From IMG/VR virus record IMGVR_UViG_3300004095_000014, positions 1 through 24,306 of that record: a stretch of DNA of 24,306 bases; one strand, 5' to 3'. Both the position numbers and the translations under genes were made by a program. This stretch comes from a virus. This document shows positions 1 through 15,452 of this stretch, piece after piece. Numbering within the stretch: position 1 is the stretch's first letter; each line of letters opens with the position of its first letter. The notes under the pieces were generated by a model. The model was not told the DNA's origin. It saw only the letters and a list, made by a program, of their open reading frames with translations, and ran no database searches.

Positions 1-777
1 TAATGCACCAAAGTCAACTGTCCATTCCTTTCCAGGTGCTAGTTCAATTGCACCTGCAGGTAAAGCATATTTAACCCCAGCATCTGCCATAATAGTAGCA
101 ACGGGAATACGAAACTTAGTTAAATCATTACCTAGATTTGGATATGGGGCAACGTGCGGAAATCCCCAACCTGCGATTTCTTTAGTTTGATTGTTAATAA
201 CTATCTTGTAAAATCCATGCGGAACAACTACGCCTTTGCCAATAGTCTTGTCTCCTGCACTATATAATCCACCAGATACAATTGTAAATGATTGATTATG
301 TTGTACAGCCCACCCACGCACTGAAGTTTCTAATAATTTCCAAATACCACGATTTAATGAACCAGCTTGCGGCGACATATTGGTCATCAGGAATGATTCA
401 TATTCAACCTGCGGGTCCCAACTTAAATCACCATCTGGTGCCATATGTCCTTTGTCGTAACCTGTGCCAGCATAATCGCCAGGAACAGCACCATCAGGAA
501 CTGATTGATCAGCTGCAAATGCGTTTGTACGTGCTACGCATCCCAATGCATTTGGCGGGGTAAGCTCGTACATAACGAACTCAGGTAATTTAGCAGCAGC
601 ATCATATCCTACCAAATACGCTTGGCGGCAAATAGCCTGCACTGGCTTGATGCTTTCCGGAAAACCATAAGGTGCATGTACTTGGCACGCGGCCACTGGA
701 TTAACTGGACGTTGTGTCCATGCAAATGTAGATGTTGATAATACTGCAAATAATAATCCTATTAATATTTTTTTCAT
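1..777 (-). CDS. Secreted DNA/RNA non-specific endonuclease (NucA/Serratia type), 3' end outside window
   Basis: The frame is open from an ATG at 777 to the window edge (259 codons, no stop). Residues 1-19 form a signal peptide: Lys-Lys, a hydrophobic core, then STFA before a likely cleavage at A19/W20. The mature part has the hallmarks of the beta-beta-alpha-metal nuclease family: YDKGHMAP at 107-114 (canonical DRGH, here Arg to Lys; H111 would be the general base), NMSPQ at 133-137, and LNRGIWKLLE at 141-150, where N142 and E150 match the metal-binding Asn and the Glu eight residues later in Serratia nuclease. Such enzymes cut single- and double-stranded DNA and RNA with Mg2+ and act outside the cytoplasm. 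It follows the 131-residue gene by two bases with only a weak GAG ribosome site and is the last visible gene of a late operon. The family is clear; its role in a phage is not. Confidence 0.93.
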   Translation of the reverse strand, partial: MKKILIGLLFAVLSTSTFAWTQRPVNPVAACQVHAPYGFPESIKPVQAICRQAYLVGYDAAAKLPEFVMYELTPPNALGCVARTNAFAADQSVPDGAVPGDYAGTGYDKGHMAPDGDLSWDPQVEYESFLMTNMSPQAGSLNRGIWKLLETSVRGWAVQHNQSFTIVSGGLYSAGDKTIGKGVVVPHGFYKIVINNQTKEIAGWGFPHVAPYPNLGNDLTKFRIPVATIMADAGVKYALPAGAIELAPGKEWTVDFGAL

Positions 778-779
778 TT

Positions 780-1175
780 TTATTTTCTCTTTGATGTATT
801 TCTGGGATAACCCTTAAACCCAGTTACTGGACTTGTTTTATGTGTACCAGGAGGCTCAGCTGATCCATGTGCAGCAACACTTGTTTGCGATTCTGATGGT
901 ATAGTAGCAATTGCTGCATCAATCATTAATTGTTCTTCGGCAGTATATGGATGCACACTATTATATTTTTCTACCCAACTTGAAGAATCAACACCGTCAA
1001 TAGCACCAGGATTTTTACCATCAGCAGAAGCCATTGCCATCCCTAATCGATTCAAATAATAAATTCTATCATATCCGCCTACATCTCTAACTAATGCAGA
1101 TTGTTGCATTGGATGTTTATGTTCTTTGGGTAAGTCACCAACTGAGGTTTCGGTTATAAATTCTTTTGCTCTCAT
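780..1175 (-). CDS. Small protein with capsid-targeting-like N-terminus, paralogue A
   Basis: This 131-residue protein has no function I recognise. It starts MRAKEFITE and ends with a basic tail (NTSKRK). It is a diverged paralogue of the gene just upstream: both share MRA(K/R)EFI.E, a central aromatic/alanine block followed by DGK (residues about 37-55), a YT.E(E/D) block near 80, and EPP.T..SP(V/I).GFKGY near the C-terminus. The start codon overlaps the stop of that neighbour as ATGA, so the two are translationally coupled. The first nine residues resemble the T4 internal-protein capsid targeting sequence (MKTYQEFIAE), with I-T-E fitting the L/I-x-E site of the gp21 prohead protease. Packaging in the head is therefore an inference; the alternative is a chance similarity in a short amphipathic helix. 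Confidence 0.8.
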   Translation of the reverse strand: MRAKEFITETSVGDLPKEHKHPMQQSALVRDVGGYDRIYYLNRLGMAMASADGKNPGAIDGVDSSSWVEKYNSVHPYTAEEQLMIDAAIATIPSESQTSVAAHGSAEPPGTHKTSPVTGFKGYPRNTSKRK

Positions 1176-1537
1176 CGACGTTTATAACCTTTAAACCCTA
1201 CTATAGGACTTATGGCATCAGTATCTGGTGGTTCATGTGATTCTTTATCACTAACTTCATTAACTTTAAGTCCCAATGCCTTGGCAGTTGCGTTAATAAT
1301 CGCGGCATCTTCCGGAGTATACGATATTGTATTTAATTTTTGTCCAAGTGGTCCATCTTTTGACATTTTATAGCCATTACCTTTGCCATCAAGGGCGCCG
1401 GCTGCAACAATAAAACGCCACATGTGATAGGGATTAGAGTTATCTAATCCTGGTAAAACCTCCATGCCCGGCATTGCATCTAATTGATCTGCACCAAACT
1501 TGCTAGAAGACTCGCGTATAAATTCACGAGCTCTCAT
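1172..1537 (-). CDS. Small protein with capsid-targeting-like N-terminus, paralogue B
   Basis: This 121-residue protein of unknown function starts MRAREFIRE and ends GFKGYKRR. It shares with the downstream 131-residue gene the N-terminal helix, a YHMWRFIVAAGALDGKGNGY-like central block (residues about 37-56), a YTPEDAAI block (about 74-81) and the EPPDT..SPIVGFKGY C-terminal block. A Shine-Dalgarno AAGG lies in the last codons of the 96-residue gene upstream, whose stop is two bases before this ATG. The 3' end overlaps the next gene by ATGA. The N-terminus again resembles the T4 capsid targeting sequence, with I-R-E as a possible prohead protease site at residues 7-9. No catalytic motif or membrane segment is visible. 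Confidence 0.8.
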   Translation of the reverse strand: MRAREFIRESSSKFGADQLDAMPGMEVLPGLDNSNPYHMWRFIVAAGALDGKGNGYKMSKDGPLGQKLNTISYTPEDAAIINATAKALGLKVNEVSDKESHEPPDTDAISPIVGFKGYKRR

Positions 1538-1539
1538 GA

Positions 1540-1830
1540 TTAACCTTGTCCAATAACACCTGCTTGCGCAGAAGAAGCAGTGCCTAATTCGCGTGCAGTA
1601 AAATTTGTGCCTGTAATTGTCAATTTATTGCCAGCGCCTACATAAATTTGTTGTCGTGCGTTAGCTGCTACTTGTGGAGCAGCTGAGTAAATATTACCTA
1701 CCGCAGAGGCTGTACCTAATGCTGGTGCATAAACTTGATATGTAACAGTGGCATTACCTGTTACAATTTCACATTTATCAGTGTACCATACTGCATTAGA
1801 TACAGATGTATAAACATTTGCTTGACTCAT
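1540..1830 (-). CDS. Small beta-rich protein, probable virion component
   Basis: This 96-residue protein is rich in Thr, Ala, Val and Gly with alternating hydrophobic residues and almost no charge, which suggests a small beta-sandwich. I do not recognise a named family. Visible landmarks are VWYTDKCEIVTGNATVTYQV at 14-33 and a C-terminal IYVGAGNKLTITGTNFTAREL segment. AAGGA precedes the ATG by six bases. It lies between the 988-residue gene and the two small paralogues in a late operon, so a head decoration or other minor structural role is plausible. That is inference from composition and position only. Confidence 0.72.
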   Translation of the reverse strand: MSQANVYTSVSNAVWYTDKCEIVTGNATVTYQVYAPALGTASAVGNIYSAAPQVAANARQQIYVGAGNKLTITGTNFTARELGTASSAQAGVIGQG

Positions 1831-1840
1831 TTATTAATCC

Positions 1841-4807
1841 TTAAATTTTAATCTTTGAAAATGCTTTATACAAATTTAAAAAGCTGTCGCTTTCGGACAT
1901 TTGACGCTCTTCTTGACTTGCTAATACAGGAATAGTAGTTTGTCCAGTTGATTTTTTACCATTTAGTCCACCACTATATTGCATTGCATCGTCTGATTCT
2001 TCTTGATTAGTTGGATAATCTGGCTCGTTTTCAGTATATGTTGCATCAGCTTCTTCTAACCCAGCTAATTCCATCATTCTTTTGTGGGCAGTATCATCTT
2101 CTTCCATATCACCTTCAAACTGAGCTTTAGGAATATCTTTGGCTGGATAATCAGTGTCATTATTATATGCTTGGTGATCGTCATCGTCGTAGTAATTGTT
2201 ATTCTGTTCACGATCCTGTTGTGCGTGTCTCATCAACATATCGTAAGTTATTGGCTCATTTGATTTTTGTGGATCATGTAGCTGACGAAGTATATTATCA
2301 ACGCCTGCAGGGTTTATCGTGCCATTAACTCTAGTCATATCAATTGCGGCAGACAAAAATTCATCCCAATCTAATTTTCCATCAAAATAATCTTGAACTA
2401 ATTGTTCTGAATCATCATCTGCATCATGTTGGTTTGCTTCGACCATTTCGTCACATTGACAAGGAATACCGCCACATGAATCACAAGGTTCTTCACCATT
2501 CTCATGACCAGCTTCGTCACCATGTGAAATGCCCATATTATGCAGCATTTCTTTCATACGTGAAACGTCATCACCGCTTACGGAAATAGTTATATTTTCA
2601 ACTTCTTCTCCGTCGTCACCTTTAGAAGAATCGTTAGTAATGCTGATACCTTCACTTAATAGTGTAGTATATTTGTGTTCCCAGCTATCGTAAATGCCTT
2701 GTCCAATACCCATGCCGCCGGAAGATTTACTAGAAGTGGATGGAGCTACTGACCCAGAAGTTGTAGTTTCTTCAACTTTTTCTTCTTTAGGTTTCTTAGG
2801 TTCAGCTTTCTTTTCGACTTTTTTCTCATCATGCTCGATGTCTTTAGTTACACGTTTGCCAGCTTTTTCAGCTTTGTTGTCTTCTGGCTCACGTTTTTTA
2901 CCACTTATCCCATCTTTCTTTTTCTCATCATACTCGATGTCTTTAGTAACTTTTTTACCGGCTTTTTCGGCTTTACCATCACTCTTGGAAGTAGATTCTT
3001 TTTTCTCATCTACTTCTTTTTTAGCACCTTTAGTAACATTACCTACTACTTTGGCTACTTTTTTAGCAGCAGGTGCTAATTTGTCAAAGAAATGACGCTG
3101 TCCTGCGGCTGCTTTTTCTTCGTCAACTTCTGACTCATTTGACTTGTGCTTCATAGCATTACTTAATTGCTTTGTACCTTTGTCAGCTTTATTAAATTCT
3201 TTAGCAACAGATCCTTTGATTCCTACTTTCTTAGCAAACTTAGGATTGTGTGCAGCCGCTGCCATAGTACGTGCTTGCTTTTCACTAGTTGATTTTTCAG
3301 CGATTGGCATTTCTGCTCCACTCTGTGACATAGCATCTGGGTCATGCTGCATTTCTTGATCACTTAGTAAGTAATCCATAACACTTACCAACATACCTTT
3401 AATGGCACCCATTTTTTCAGATACCCATTCAGGTAATTCTGAATTTGTACTGAGATGATGATCCAAATGTGTTGCTACGCGAATTACAGTATGTAAACTA
3501 TTTTTAAATGTTTCGCCCTCGTCACTATAATCTTGTTCAGATCCTTCTTCCATCTCACGAGATTTCATATGTGATTTAATTAAACTACCTTTAGTACGAG
3601 CGCCGTAGCTACCTCTCGTTGATCCTGCTTGTCCACCTGGACCTCTTACTTCATCGTCTGCAGGTTCTTCATGTTTACGTGAATAAACGGTTCCAGTTGA
3701 GGTTTTACGTACATTATGTCTTGGATGTGTATCTGCTTCTGGTTCTCGTGGTTCCCAAATGCCTGGCCATGCACTTTCATCTACATCGTGTCCAGCACGT
3801 CGTTCAGCATCTTTTTCAGCATCAATTAACCAACCTGGTTTGCCATGTGGTCCATTTGCGGTTTCTTCAAATTCCATTCCATTGTATGCATCAGCAGCAC
3901 CAGCTGACCCATTATATGGGCGACTCATCGAACGAGCTTGGTGATGTTGTGGTGCTATTTTATCTTTCAAATAGGATAAGATTTCATCTTCTGATTCTTC
4001 CAAATCATCTGGATGGCGAGATTTCTGTTGCTGTTGTCGAGCTAGCTTAGGCATTTCGCGAGCTAATTTAGACTTGTGTTGCTGTAATGCGGCTGCGTCC
4101 CAGTCTTTATTTCTAGGATTTGTATCCATAGGCTTTTGCCCATGCATATCACATTCGTCCATCTCACTATCAGCAGCGTTTATTGCCTCAAAATTAATGC
4201 TTTCTATAATTTCTTTAACAATATCAGGCGGACAACCTAACGTATTAGAAATGTTTTTTGTTAATTTATCTATTATTTGTGCTAATTCGCTAGGTCTCAT
4301 AGGAAATTCAATGCTAAAACTGTAGTTTTTCTCTATTTCGTCAGCAACTGCATCGTACCAAGATTCTATCATTTCATAATGTTGTTCTGTTGGATCATTC
4401 GGATCGCCGCCCCATTCGTTAACTTTTTTCTTACCCTTACCCTGAATGTTTAGTGCAAAATTAGCACGTTTCTTTTCGAGTGGGGTACCTGATTTCTTTA
4501 GACTTTGTAATTTTTTGTCGCCAATTTTCTTATCTTGTGGAATACCTTCTTGCTTATGTAAGGCTCCTTTTTTAATGGTCTTGGCAGCTTTACTTAATGA
4601 TTTGTCTGTTTTTTCTTCCAATGAACCTGAACCAGAAAAATTTGCACCGCCGGTGCCATCTTCCATTAAATTACGTAAGTCTGTACGTAATGCATCTTCC
4701 AGTGTCGTTTGCACTGAGCTTTTGGTAACAGTTTTACTTTCTGATATTGTTTGCTTGTCAGCATCAATACCGGCTAATGTTTTGTTAAGTTTGTAAAATG
4801 GGTTCAT
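1841..4807 (-). CDS. Very large Lys/Glu-rich mosaic protein, probable virion or scaffold protein
   Basis: This 988-residue protein is highly charged and largely low-complexity, with several short ordered islands. Residues 1-120 are Lys-rich (an EKTDKSLSKAAKTIKKGALHK segment and repeats of KK). Around 440-480 lies a helical HHLSTNSELPEWVSEKMGAI block. Around 504-537 lies a KQARTMAAAAHNPKFAKKVG block that I have seen in several phage proteins. Two copies of a 33-residue repeat with core KAEKAGK(K/R)VTKDIE begin near 611 and 644. A cysteine knuckle CDSCGGIPCQC sits near 775-785, after a GDDVSRMKEMLHNMGI helix. The C-terminus is very acidic (YYDDDD near 875) and ends LNLYKAFSKIKI. GAGGA precedes the ATG. 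Its late operon suggests a structural, core or DNA-associated role; no function is shown. Confidence 0.82.
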   Translation of the reverse strand: MNPFYKLNKTLAGIDADKQTISESKTVTKSSVQTTLEDALRTDLRNLMEDGTGGANFSGSGSLEEKTDKSLSKAAKTIKKGALHKQEGIPQDKKIGDKKLQSLKKSGTPLEKKRANFALNIQGKGKKKVNEWGGDPNDPTEQHYEMIESWYDAVADEIEKNYSFSIEFPMRPSELAQIIDKLTKNISNTLGCPPDIVKEIIESINFEAINAADSEMDECDMHGQKPMDTNPRNKDWDAAALQQHKSKLAREMPKLARQQQQKSRHPDDLEESEDEILSYLKDKIAPQHHQARSMSRPYNGSAGAADAYNGMEFEETANGPHGKPGWLIDAEKDAERRAGHDVDESAWPGIWEPREPEADTHPRHNVRKTSTGTVYSRKHEEPADDEVRGPGGQAGSTRGSYGARTKGSLIKSHMKSREMEEGSEQDYSDEGETFKNSLHTVIRVATHLDHHLSTNSELPEWVSEKMGAIKGMLVSVMDYLLSDQEMQHDPDAMSQSGAEMPIAEKSTSEKQARTMAAAAHNPKFAKKVGIKGSVAKEFNKADKGTKQLSNAMKHKSNESEVDEEKAAAGQRHFFDKLAPAAKKVAKVVGNVTKGAKKEVDEKKESTSKSDGKAEKAGKKVTKDIEYDEKKKDGISGKKREPEDNKAEKAGKRVTKDIEHDEKKVEKKAEPKKPKEEKVEETTTSGSVAPSTSSKSSGGMGIGQGIYDSWEHKYTTLLSEGISITNDSSKGDDGEEVENITISVSGDDVSRMKEMLHNMGISHGDEAGHENGEEPCDSCGGIPCQCDEMVEANQHDADDDSEQLVQDYFDGKLDWDEFLSAAIDMTRVNGTINPAGVDNILRQLHDPQKSNEPITYDMLMRHAQQDREQNNNYYDDDDHQAYNNDTDYPAKDIPKAQFEGDMEEDDTAHKRMMELAGLEEADATYTENEPDYPTNQEESDDAMQYSGGLNGKKSTGQTTIPVLASQEERQMSESDSFLNLYKAFSKIKI
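2821..2977 (-). repeat. Coding tandem repeat, 99 bp (33 residues), two copies
   Basis: Copies begin at 2821 and 2920 on the plus strand, 99 bases apart, and share long runs such as TCGATGTCTTTAGT. They encode KAEKAGK(K/R)VTKDIE(Y/H)DEKK in the 988-residue protein. Third positions differ between the copies, so the duplication is not recent, while the peptide is kept. Confidence 0.8.
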
Positions 4808-4812
4808 TACTA

Positions 4813-5424
4813 TTATCCTCTAGGTTGGGCGCCAGTAGCTGGACGCTTGGGTCTTTTTTCTGCATGAGTCATTGGGCTGGTGTTACCCATCTTTAAATCA
4901 TTTGTTGTTTCTGCTGCTTTTGGACTACCGCCAGCAATAGTGAAATCTGAACGATACGCATTTTTCAATACTGCATGATTATATGGATCAGCAGAATAAT
5001 CAGCTTTCAATGCTGCTTGTTCTGCGTCATCAGCTGGGTAATTGGTATCAGCTAACAATGATTCTGGTTGTGCTTCAAGTTTTTTCTGATATTCTGCATT
5101 GGTATCATCATATACAGAAGTTTGCATGATAATTTTATTTTCATCTAACCCTAATAAACGAGCAATTTGTTTAATTTGCGGTTCAATTGCAGGATAACGT
5201 AACATAACATCAACACTGGTAACTTTTTCATTTTCAAATGCAGGAAAGTCAGCAGGTTTTGCCTGTATTGGAGTAGACTTTTCTGAACCAATTTTTAATG
5301 GATCAAATTGTTCTAGTTTACCTTTTAGAGCATTATAAAATCCCTGAGGCAGTTCACCCACTATCTTAATGCGATAGTTATAGGTTCTTTCGCTTTCGGC
5401 CAAGTAGTCTTTAAAATTTTTCAT
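4813..5424 (-). CDS. Conserved phage protein with capsid-targeting-like N-terminus
   Basis: This 203-residue protein begins MKNFKDYLAESER, close to the T4 capsid targeting sequence MKTYQEFIAEA, with L-A-E at 8-10 as a candidate prohead protease site. The rest divides into an alpha/beta part at about 15-105 (YRIKIVGELPQGFYNALKGK, then SVDVMLRYPA and DENKIIMQTSVY, a ferredoxin-like alternation) and a disordered C-terminus ending in a Lys/Arg/Pro-rich tail (EKRPKRPATGAQPRG). AGGA lies eight bases before the ATG, and a late-type CATAAATA box lies 17 bases upstream, so this is the first gene of the operon that continues to the left edge. I believe similar proteins are common in marine T4-like phages, but no function is known to me. 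Transport into the prohead as an internal protein is inferred. Confidence 0.85.
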   Translation of the reverse strand: MKNFKDYLAESERTYNYRIKIVGELPQGFYNALKGKLEQFDPLKIGSEKSTPIQAKPADFPAFENEKVTSVDVMLRYPAIEPQIKQIARLLGLDENKIIMQTSVYDDTNAEYQKKLEAQPESLLADTNYPADDAEQAALKADYSADPYNHAVLKNAYRSDFTIAGGSPKAAETTNDLKMGNTSPMTHAEKRPKRPATGAQPRG

Positions 5425-5449: not shown

Positions 5450-5950
5450 TTAATTGTCTTTTTGTGCTCTGTCATTAAGCAGACGTTCAAGCAAATCGTT
5501 ACGTGTTAATACTTGTCCTTGTGCAGTTGGAATATCACCTAACTCTCCAGATTTTTTAGCCGCATCTTGATCCAACTTTAATTTACGCAATTGTAAATCA
5601 ATCATTTTTAATTTTTTATTAAGTTTGGTAGTTTTGGCAGTTAGTGCATGACCTAGCATAGTACCAGCTACTGCAAATAGTTCAGCTGAATATCTACTGT
5701 CTACATTCATTCCGAGATCTGATAAATCCTGATAACTTTGTTTAGCAAGGTCAGCTAGTTCATCTAATTCTCTATCTGATGCAGCCAAATCTCTAATGGC
5801 CGGTAAAGCTTCGTCTATCTTGTCTATTGTTTCATCAATATGTACAATAGCATCACGAGTTTCTTCCGGGGTCATATTTTCAACAACAGGTGGATCTTGT
5901 TCGATATCAAGTTTATCAAATCCAAATAGGGTTTCTAAATTTTTTGTCAT
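5450..5950 (-). CDS. gp16: Terminase small subunit, gp16-like
   Basis: The 166 residues match the length of T4 gp16 (164). The centre is a helical hairpin: a long acidic helix at about 28-75 followed by NVDSRYSAELFAVAGTMLGH (80-99) and a Lys/Leu-rich helix LNKKLKMIDLQLRKLK. This corresponds to the 'ADSPRHMEVFATLMGQ ... LHKDMKDI' core of T4 gp16 in register and spacing. The last third (DIPTAQGQVLTRNDLLERLLND) resembles the T4 'GAVPTGQMNIQN ... G/STEL' tail. gp16 forms a ring that recognises DNA and stimulates the gp17 packaging motor; gp17 is not in this window. No clear Shine-Dalgarno precedes the ATG, and a short hairpin contains its first two bases. It is separated from the gp4-like gene by 32 bases. 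Confidence 0.8.
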   Translation of the reverse strand: MTKNLETLFGFDKLDIEQDPPVVENMTPEETRDAIVHIDETIDKIDEALPAIRDLAASDRELDELADLAKQSYQDLSDLGMNVDSRYSAELFAVAGTMLGHALTAKTTKLNKKLKMIDLQLRKLKLDQDAAKKSGELGDIPTAQGQVLTRNDLLERLLNDRAQKDN

Positions 5951-5982: not shown

Positions 5983-6417
5983 TTACTTCTTTCGTCCTTG
6001 GTGGAAAATATCCGACTCAGTAATTACACGAAAACTTAATCCATTTTGTTTGGCCCACTGTTGAGCCGCTGCCCATTTGGCATAGTTAACTGCTATTACA
6101 GCACGTTGACTATCCTTCATTTTTCCTTCAATCACACTTTGATTGCGTGGCTTAATTTCTATTAATTCGGCTCTTGTAGTATTTTGTGGACCTCGATATA
6201 CCACAATAAAATCAGGAACATACATGGTCATTTTGCCGGTAAGTGGATGACGATAGGGAATTCTAACCGGTTCACTGGCCCAATTTATCACATGCTCGTT
6301 GTTATCACAAAAATGCATAAAAGTCATTTCCCATCCTGATCGGTATCTGGGTTTTCCTTTGCCTACATATTTGTGTGCATTATTTACTTCGTATAATCCT
6401 TGACGAAAGCTAGGCAT
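5983..6417 (-). CDS. gp4: Head completion protein gp4-like, PD-(D/E)xK nuclease fold
   Basis: This 144-residue protein has the features of the T4 gp4 family (T4 gp4 is about 150 residues): HKYVGKGKPRYRSGWEMTF (15-33), HVINWASEPVRIPY (42-55), a PDF motif at 68-70 and ELIEIKP at 84-90. E30, D69 and E87-x-K89 form the arrangement of a PD-(D/E)xK nuclease active site, as in TnsA-like enzymes. In T4, gp4 acts late in head completion before tail joining. Its ATG is two bases before the stop of the 119-residue gene upstream (stop then ATG), with no strong ribosome site, so it is likely read by coupling. It sits between tail genes and the small terminase gene, in line with a role at the packaged head. 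The family assignment is strong; enzymatic activity is inferred from residues. Confidence 0.88.
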   Translation of the reverse strand: MPSFRQGLYEVNNAHKYVGKGKPRYRSGWEMTFMHFCDNNEHVINWASEPVRIPYRHPLTGKMTMYVPDFIVVYRGPQNTTRAELIEIKPRNQSVIEGKMKDSQRAVIAVNYAKWAAAQQWAKQNGLSFRVITESDIFHQGRKK

Positions 6418-15416: not shown

Positions 15417-15423
15417 ACTACTA

Positions 15424-15452
15424 TTTATATACTATCCGATAACTCAAGTCAA
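15424..15452 (-). promoter_or_regulatory. Host-type sigma70 promoter of the homing endonuclease; contains a TATAAATA box
   Basis: Minus strand: -35 TTGACT (15447-15452), 17-base spacer, -10 TATAAA (15424-15429). Predicted start is one base before the ATG at 15416. The -10 is also part of TATAAATA (15422-15429), a perfect late box, so the same site could be used late as well. Confidence 0.75.

Follow-up and report, generated by a model that had tools for sequence, protein, structure and literature searches.

Phage-injected proteins are usually guessed at from gene neighbourhood or from fusions to head proteins. The closest described system to the one considered here is the capsid-targeting sequence (CTS) of the phage T4 internal proteins IPII and IPIII (Mullaney and Black), MKTYQEFIAE, an N-terminal stretch of about 10 residues in which residue 2 is basic, residues 4 and 7 are aromatic and the end is I-x-E. 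In IPIII residues 4 and 7 govern targeting and residues 8 and 10 govern processing, and with aspartate at position 10 processing is blocked while targeting is still allowed (PMC9026906). IPI, Alt and IPIII are the T4 basis for considering ejection of such proteins into the host (PMC3012670, PMC9391042, PMC9026906). Alt, a head-packaged ADP-ribosyltransferase, has a propeptide at both ends. A second relevant class is that of the polyvalent proteins of Iyer, Burroughs and Aravind (2017, PMC5512222), which are predicted to enter with the DNA and are recognised by their several domains, metallopeptidases often among them; part of that account, at least, does not mention a short head-address tag. 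The same account and another (PMC9503650) propose myovirus head-packaged effectors, including ADP-ribosyltransferases, from gene context and domain fusions.

How does the present locus compare? The window, the whole 24,306-nucleotide stretch of virus DNA analysed, sits reversed inside a 154-kb IMG/VR contig (L002/G001; 5/5 probes gave an exact match) whose source is a giant T4-like myovirus, and the closest cultured relatives are jumbo phages, e.g., Pseudomonas phage PA5oct and Agrobacterium phage Atu_ph07. On its minus strand, T4-like genes for the tail sheath, tail tubes and a gp4-like head completion protein (5983..6417; TnsA-like nuclease fold; PF08722, E=2.3e-21; phrog_218, head closure, E=2.6e-39) and a conserved 166-aa neighbour (5450..5950; phrog_16202), the homologue of which, PA5oct EST35_0201, is without detection by mass spectrometry (MS), lead to a block of genes at 780-5424, all also on the minus strand. 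Six genes had been counted in that block; the ORFs number five. They encode a 203-aa protein (4813..5424), a charged, low-complexity 988-aa protein (1841..4807), a 96-aa protein (1540..1830) with no match in Pfam or PHROGs, a 121-aa protein (1172..1537) and its 131-aa paralogue (780..1175), the ORF of the last overlapping its upstream ORF by 4 bases. The first, fourth and fifth of these, each preceded by a Shine-Dalgarno-like sequence and with no recognised domains in Pfam or PHROGs, begin as the original prediction had it: with the 10-codon tag MKNFKDYLAE (5395..5424) and the 9-codon tags MRAREFIRE (1511..1537) and MRAKEFITE (1149..1175). The 96-aa and 988-aa proteins are untagged. Residues 506-575 of the latter match PHROGs annotated ‘virion structural protein’, and its counterpart by position, PA5oct EST35_0203, was MS-detected, though sequence homology between the two was not found; it is a probable virion head protein. 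Past the tagged block and beyond the window come a NucA-type nuclease with a signal-peptide-like start and the large terminase. Immediately after the two MRA-tagged genes, and in one gene run with them, is a DNA/RNA non-specific endonuclease (PF01223, E=6.7e-38; window 1-777, minus strand; entire gene at L096:3642-4466) with a signal-peptide-like start; as it lacks a tag, it is probably exported.

The resemblance to T4 is closest for the 203-aa protein. MKNFKDYLAE agrees with the MKTYQEFIAE of IPII and IPIII at K2, aromatic 4, aromatic 7, I/L8, A9 and E10, so that every key position is kept, and the remaining changes are mostly conservative; among 24 orthologues M1, F4, Y7, L8 and E10 are invariant, F4 and Y7, the counterparts of the targeting residues, thus being present in 24/24. 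That MKTYQEFIAE is the start of T4 internal proteins and Alt in general was too broad a statement: it is right for IPII and IPIII, but IPI starts MKTFKEFTSTTTPVSTITE and Alt starts MELITELFDE. The second form, MRAxEFIxE, lacks the aromatic pair at 4 and 7, and is here called a variant because it falls short of the T4 CTS by one residue and contains a single aromatic, F6, instead of two. What both share, as originally claimed, is L/I-x-E at the tag end (LAE, IRE and ITE in the window), the E being invariant in both alignments of tagged relatives, and the predicted cut in the 203-aa protein is after E10 (LAE|S). Differences from T4 go further, in that the shorter form occurs on far more proteins, and on larger ones (up to 756 aa, counting close variants; some multi-domain), the genes for which are dispersed over 150-525-kb genomes, and in that both targeting and cleavage are here predicted. 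In T4 itself, the 54-aa hypothetical protein gp61.1 (L355:18966-19130) begins MKTFKEFIKED, a near-perfect CTS, and on that sequence it may be an unrecognised internal head protein. All considered, the N-termini are probably T4-type capsid-targeting propeptides in two forms, MK.F..YL.E and MRA.EFI.E, borne by one constant head protein and by variable cargo.

What found no support in the form given is the idea that the block, with the 988-aa protein and a late promoter, is a cargo module. There is no T4-type late promoter, TATAAATA, near the tagged window genes (the sole one in the window is at 15422-15429), and in the nine contigs compared below the 150 bases upstream of the tagged genes contain none either. 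The 988-aa protein is untagged, and three more tagged genes of the same virus, for proteins of 230, 340 and 474 aa, are 40-70 kb distant on its 154-kb contig.

If the tagged proteins do go to the head, is it as freight or as fabric? A reading to be taken seriously, and quite possible though we lean against it, is that they are prohead core or structural parts, the tag docking on the scaffold for head-building with no injected effectors involved. The 203-aa protein is single-copy, group-wide and fixed in place, its one orthologue adjoining the gp4-like and 166-aa genes in 8/9 genomes, and it has a homologue in PA5oct virions. Its model has a ferredoxin-like domain at about residues 15-102 (pLDDT about 78-87; 65 for the whole model), a disordered tail and a short low-confidence helix, residues 4-10, just ahead of the folded domain. 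Fold searches gave generic ferredoxin-like matches (ribosomal S6, PII, ACT), with uncharacterised phage proteins ranking top in the viral library, and pointed to no function. Members of the 121/131-aa family, too, are found widely and lie close to genes for head and tail (the model of the 121-aa protein is of low quality: pLDDT 69, pTM 0.40, the tag disordered), and T4 IPIII has been linked to head morphogenesis (PMC9026906). However, other tagged proteins are sporadic and have host-modifying enzyme domains, for which cargo fits better. The structural and cargo readings are compatible, for different proteins: since it occurs once per genome and keeps its place, the 203-aa protein fits better, and probably, as a permanent protein of the head interior, for the 121/131-aa proteins a cargo role is plausible, and the sporadic enzyme-bearing proteins are probably cargo.

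The virion evidence comes from PA5oct, the record of which carries MS annotation of whole virions, not of heads alone. EST35_0202, the 203-aa homologue, is annotated as a structural protein detected by ESI-MS/MS, and ESI-MS/MS detection is also annotated for EST35_0205, a homologue of the tagged ‘WCTA’ family, and EST35_0349, of a DUF6934-like tagged family. Thus, for the clearly tagged families with a PA5oct homologue, 3/3 are MS-positive, supportive but a small number, to be set against 44% of conserved PA5oct proteins (P about 0.09) or 20% of all (P about 0.008); a fourth match, for which the tag call is doubtful, is not MS-positive. The PA5oct homologues themselves are without the exact tag, or the L/I-x-E site at that point, starting MKSFRDYYDA in EST35_0202 and MKLFEVF and MHLFELF in the others. 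As EST35_0202 lacks L-x-E, not every member can be cleaved, and one may conceive of a tag that has no cut site, since IPIII with aspartate 10 still targets. Since PA5oct's own proteins lack the tag, it was not retained as a direct test of it (a loose pattern was found in 6/90 MS-positive proteins vs 20/353 others, P=0.44); a looser pattern that kept the register, M[KRH][AIL]x[ED][FILVM], gave 5/90 vs 3/353 (P=0.010), but it was chosen post hoc and is not relied on.

That the MS spans the whole virion leaves some room for the tag directing proteins elsewhere, to the neck, the tail, the capsid surface or an intracellular phage structure, with its L/I-x-E ending incidental. This is unlikely, as MKNFKDYLAE is near-identical to the tested T4 CTS, and in relatives there is gp21 together with a corresponding propeptide site in gp23. 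Genes for both a gp21-type protease and gp23 are present in 7/7 tagged contigs >190 kb, and one for gp21 in 4/5 long relatives; on the window's own 154-kb partial contig no gp21 match was found. In tagged contigs <102 kb gp21 is present in 0/23, where 3.7 would be expected (P=0.014), and therefore some of these may come from other phage groups; sheath is encoded in 7/38 short tagged contigs and the 203-aa family in 9/38. Aligned to FLTE|A of T4, the propeptide site of the major capsid protein gp23 is YLKE|N, HLAE|N, LLAE|S or FLVE|N, ends that, at the level of sequence, resemble those of the tags.

Two side observations concern the head proteins. In small tagged proteins of 65-78 aa (L196, L204, L221 and G017:65051-65248) the tag is directly followed by KE(D/N/T)AS.G.T..G.IA.V...P, which resembles the mature N-terminus of the major capsid protein of the same phages (KE|NASAGSTVSGNIATLN); mimicry of the capsid maturation site is possible. 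A basic/acidic-LAG[ILV] peptide recurs in gp22-like scaffolds, where it forms the very C-terminus, and inside head proteins of the 988-aa class (L090:35425-36531; G002 123799-124896; window 1841-4807); it may serve as a contact with the scaffold. The idea of LAG[IL] as another head motif was set aside, for it occurs elsewhere too.

Could the common N-terminus merely be the inherited domain start of one family? The 121- and 131-aa proteins are paralogues, with a C-terminal SPxxxFKGYxR in common as well, and so their common N-terminus alone is not independent evidence; that evidence comes instead from unrelated proteins that bear the same N-terminus. The FKGYxR family does account for 73/141 tagged proteins. 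However, when residues 1-12 were removed the 141 fell into about 31 clusters, and the 68 outside that family, in about 30 clusters, are similar to it in the tag alone. For counting across genomes, the CTS-like pattern was defined as M[KR]x(2-5)[FYW][LIVM]xE and applied to nine related contigs, about 2.5 Mb, in which genes were called in this analysis as the longest non-overlapping ORFs, so that start sites are approximate. It is found at 50/3,062 gene starts but at only 3/9,768 internal ATGs (Fisher P = 6e-28). Means for the whole set were 1.9 with shuffled N-termini and 3.2 with permuted columns, from which about two or three accidental ones are to be expected among the 50, and certain calls look doubtful (e.g., G001 133409, G002 2690, G005 77413). 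Calibrated on T4, the pattern picked out ipII, ipIII and 61.1 only among 267 ORFs. With both window families taken away, 28 tagged genes are left in the nine genomes, against those same whole-set null means, and descent within a single family, without a portable signal, is very improbable.

Within the FKGYxR family the tag is a feature in its own right. Across 32 members, 28-64% identical to the first, M1, R2, A3, E5, F6 and E9 are invariant, the stretch that follows is variable and gapped, and of 113 9-residue windows none is more conserved than the tag. Its codons vary synonymously while the residues stay fixed, and to judge from these alignments the tag is under selection at the protein level. 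The 121-aa protein found no match among cultured phages, Pfam or PHROGs. In IMG/VR, the MRAxEFIxE DNA pattern is present in at least 120 stretches, and the residue-permuted pattern in 11. Chance, composition, or a codon or mRNA effect on initiation at gene starts, suggested by the frequency of M-K/R and A/T-rich starts among phage genes, is hardly credible and was rejected on three nulls (the permuted pattern, at least 11-fold rarer, the internal ATGs, and the shuffled or column-permuted N-termini), and also in that it is the residues, not the codons, that are fixed.

What, then, do the tagged proteins carry? Recognisable domains include ADPrib_exo_Tox (PF03496, E=9.5e-13), GNAT, GH19, ParB_N, LRV repeats and DUF6321; kinase- and nucleotidyltransferase-like members were recognised by eye only, Pfam giving no confirmation. 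The PF03496 domain, behind the N-terminal tag in a relative's gene (L215), recalls Alt in its enzyme domain, though the tag sequence differs. Some tagged proteins carry or combine ADP-ribosyltransferase, ParB and peptidoglycan hydrolase, as polyvalent proteins do in the part of the account drawn on, but none of the three window proteins has several unrelated effector domains in one polypeptide. Cyanophage relatives of the DUF6321 protein are within the head-tail gene block, and two fully read N-termini there are without the tag. Far from head genes, two clusters of 4-5 tagged genes each (G012 77-93 kb, L306-L307; G016 54-74 kb, L336-L337) have the look of cargo islands that turn over rapidly. 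In some tagged or neighbouring proteins the segments are joined by repeated (Q)G[VL]AEG linkers (G016:64466-66094, L158); that they are prohead-protease sites in tagged polyproteins was set aside, as in the nine genomes just a single tagged protein contains them and they occur in untagged ones too.

The capsid-targeting interpretation has thus come through the large-scale comparison that the original prediction invited, the tag being start-specific, portable, selected at the protein level and accompanied by gp21 and gp23 in the long contigs. As many unrelated proteins bear it, it is probably a label for whatever is packed by the virus and brought into the cell. In the scheme proposed, the tag would attach to the scaffold core while the prohead is being assembled; cleavage after L/I-x-E by the gp21-type protease would follow, and what is left of the protein would remain in the head along with the DNA. 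The constant internal head protein would be the 203-aa one, and the 121/131-aa tandem and the 230-, 340- and 474-aa proteins would be variable cargo, of which at least a part would be ejected into the host. Head targeting and trimming are likely; ejection, and function in the host, we infer from T4 (IPI, Alt, IPIII) and from the kinds of domains found.

No description of MRAxEFIxE was found in the literature searched, coverage of which was limited and in which the motif is not text-searchable. We incline to the view that a large group of uncultured giant T4-like phages uses it as a head address that is general and portable, and by which their effectors may be read off the genome. If so, injected effectors (ADP-ribosyltransferases, acetyltransferases, kinase-like proteins, ParB, GH19 and dozens of unknown families) could be listed by a 9-residue signature, and the practical value is in having a sequence signature with which to list head cargo. 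By virtue of a short tag many unannotated giant-phage genes would become testable candidates for anti-defence or host take-over, and the T4 CTS, rather than a peculiarity of the T-even phages, would be one dialect of a wider system.
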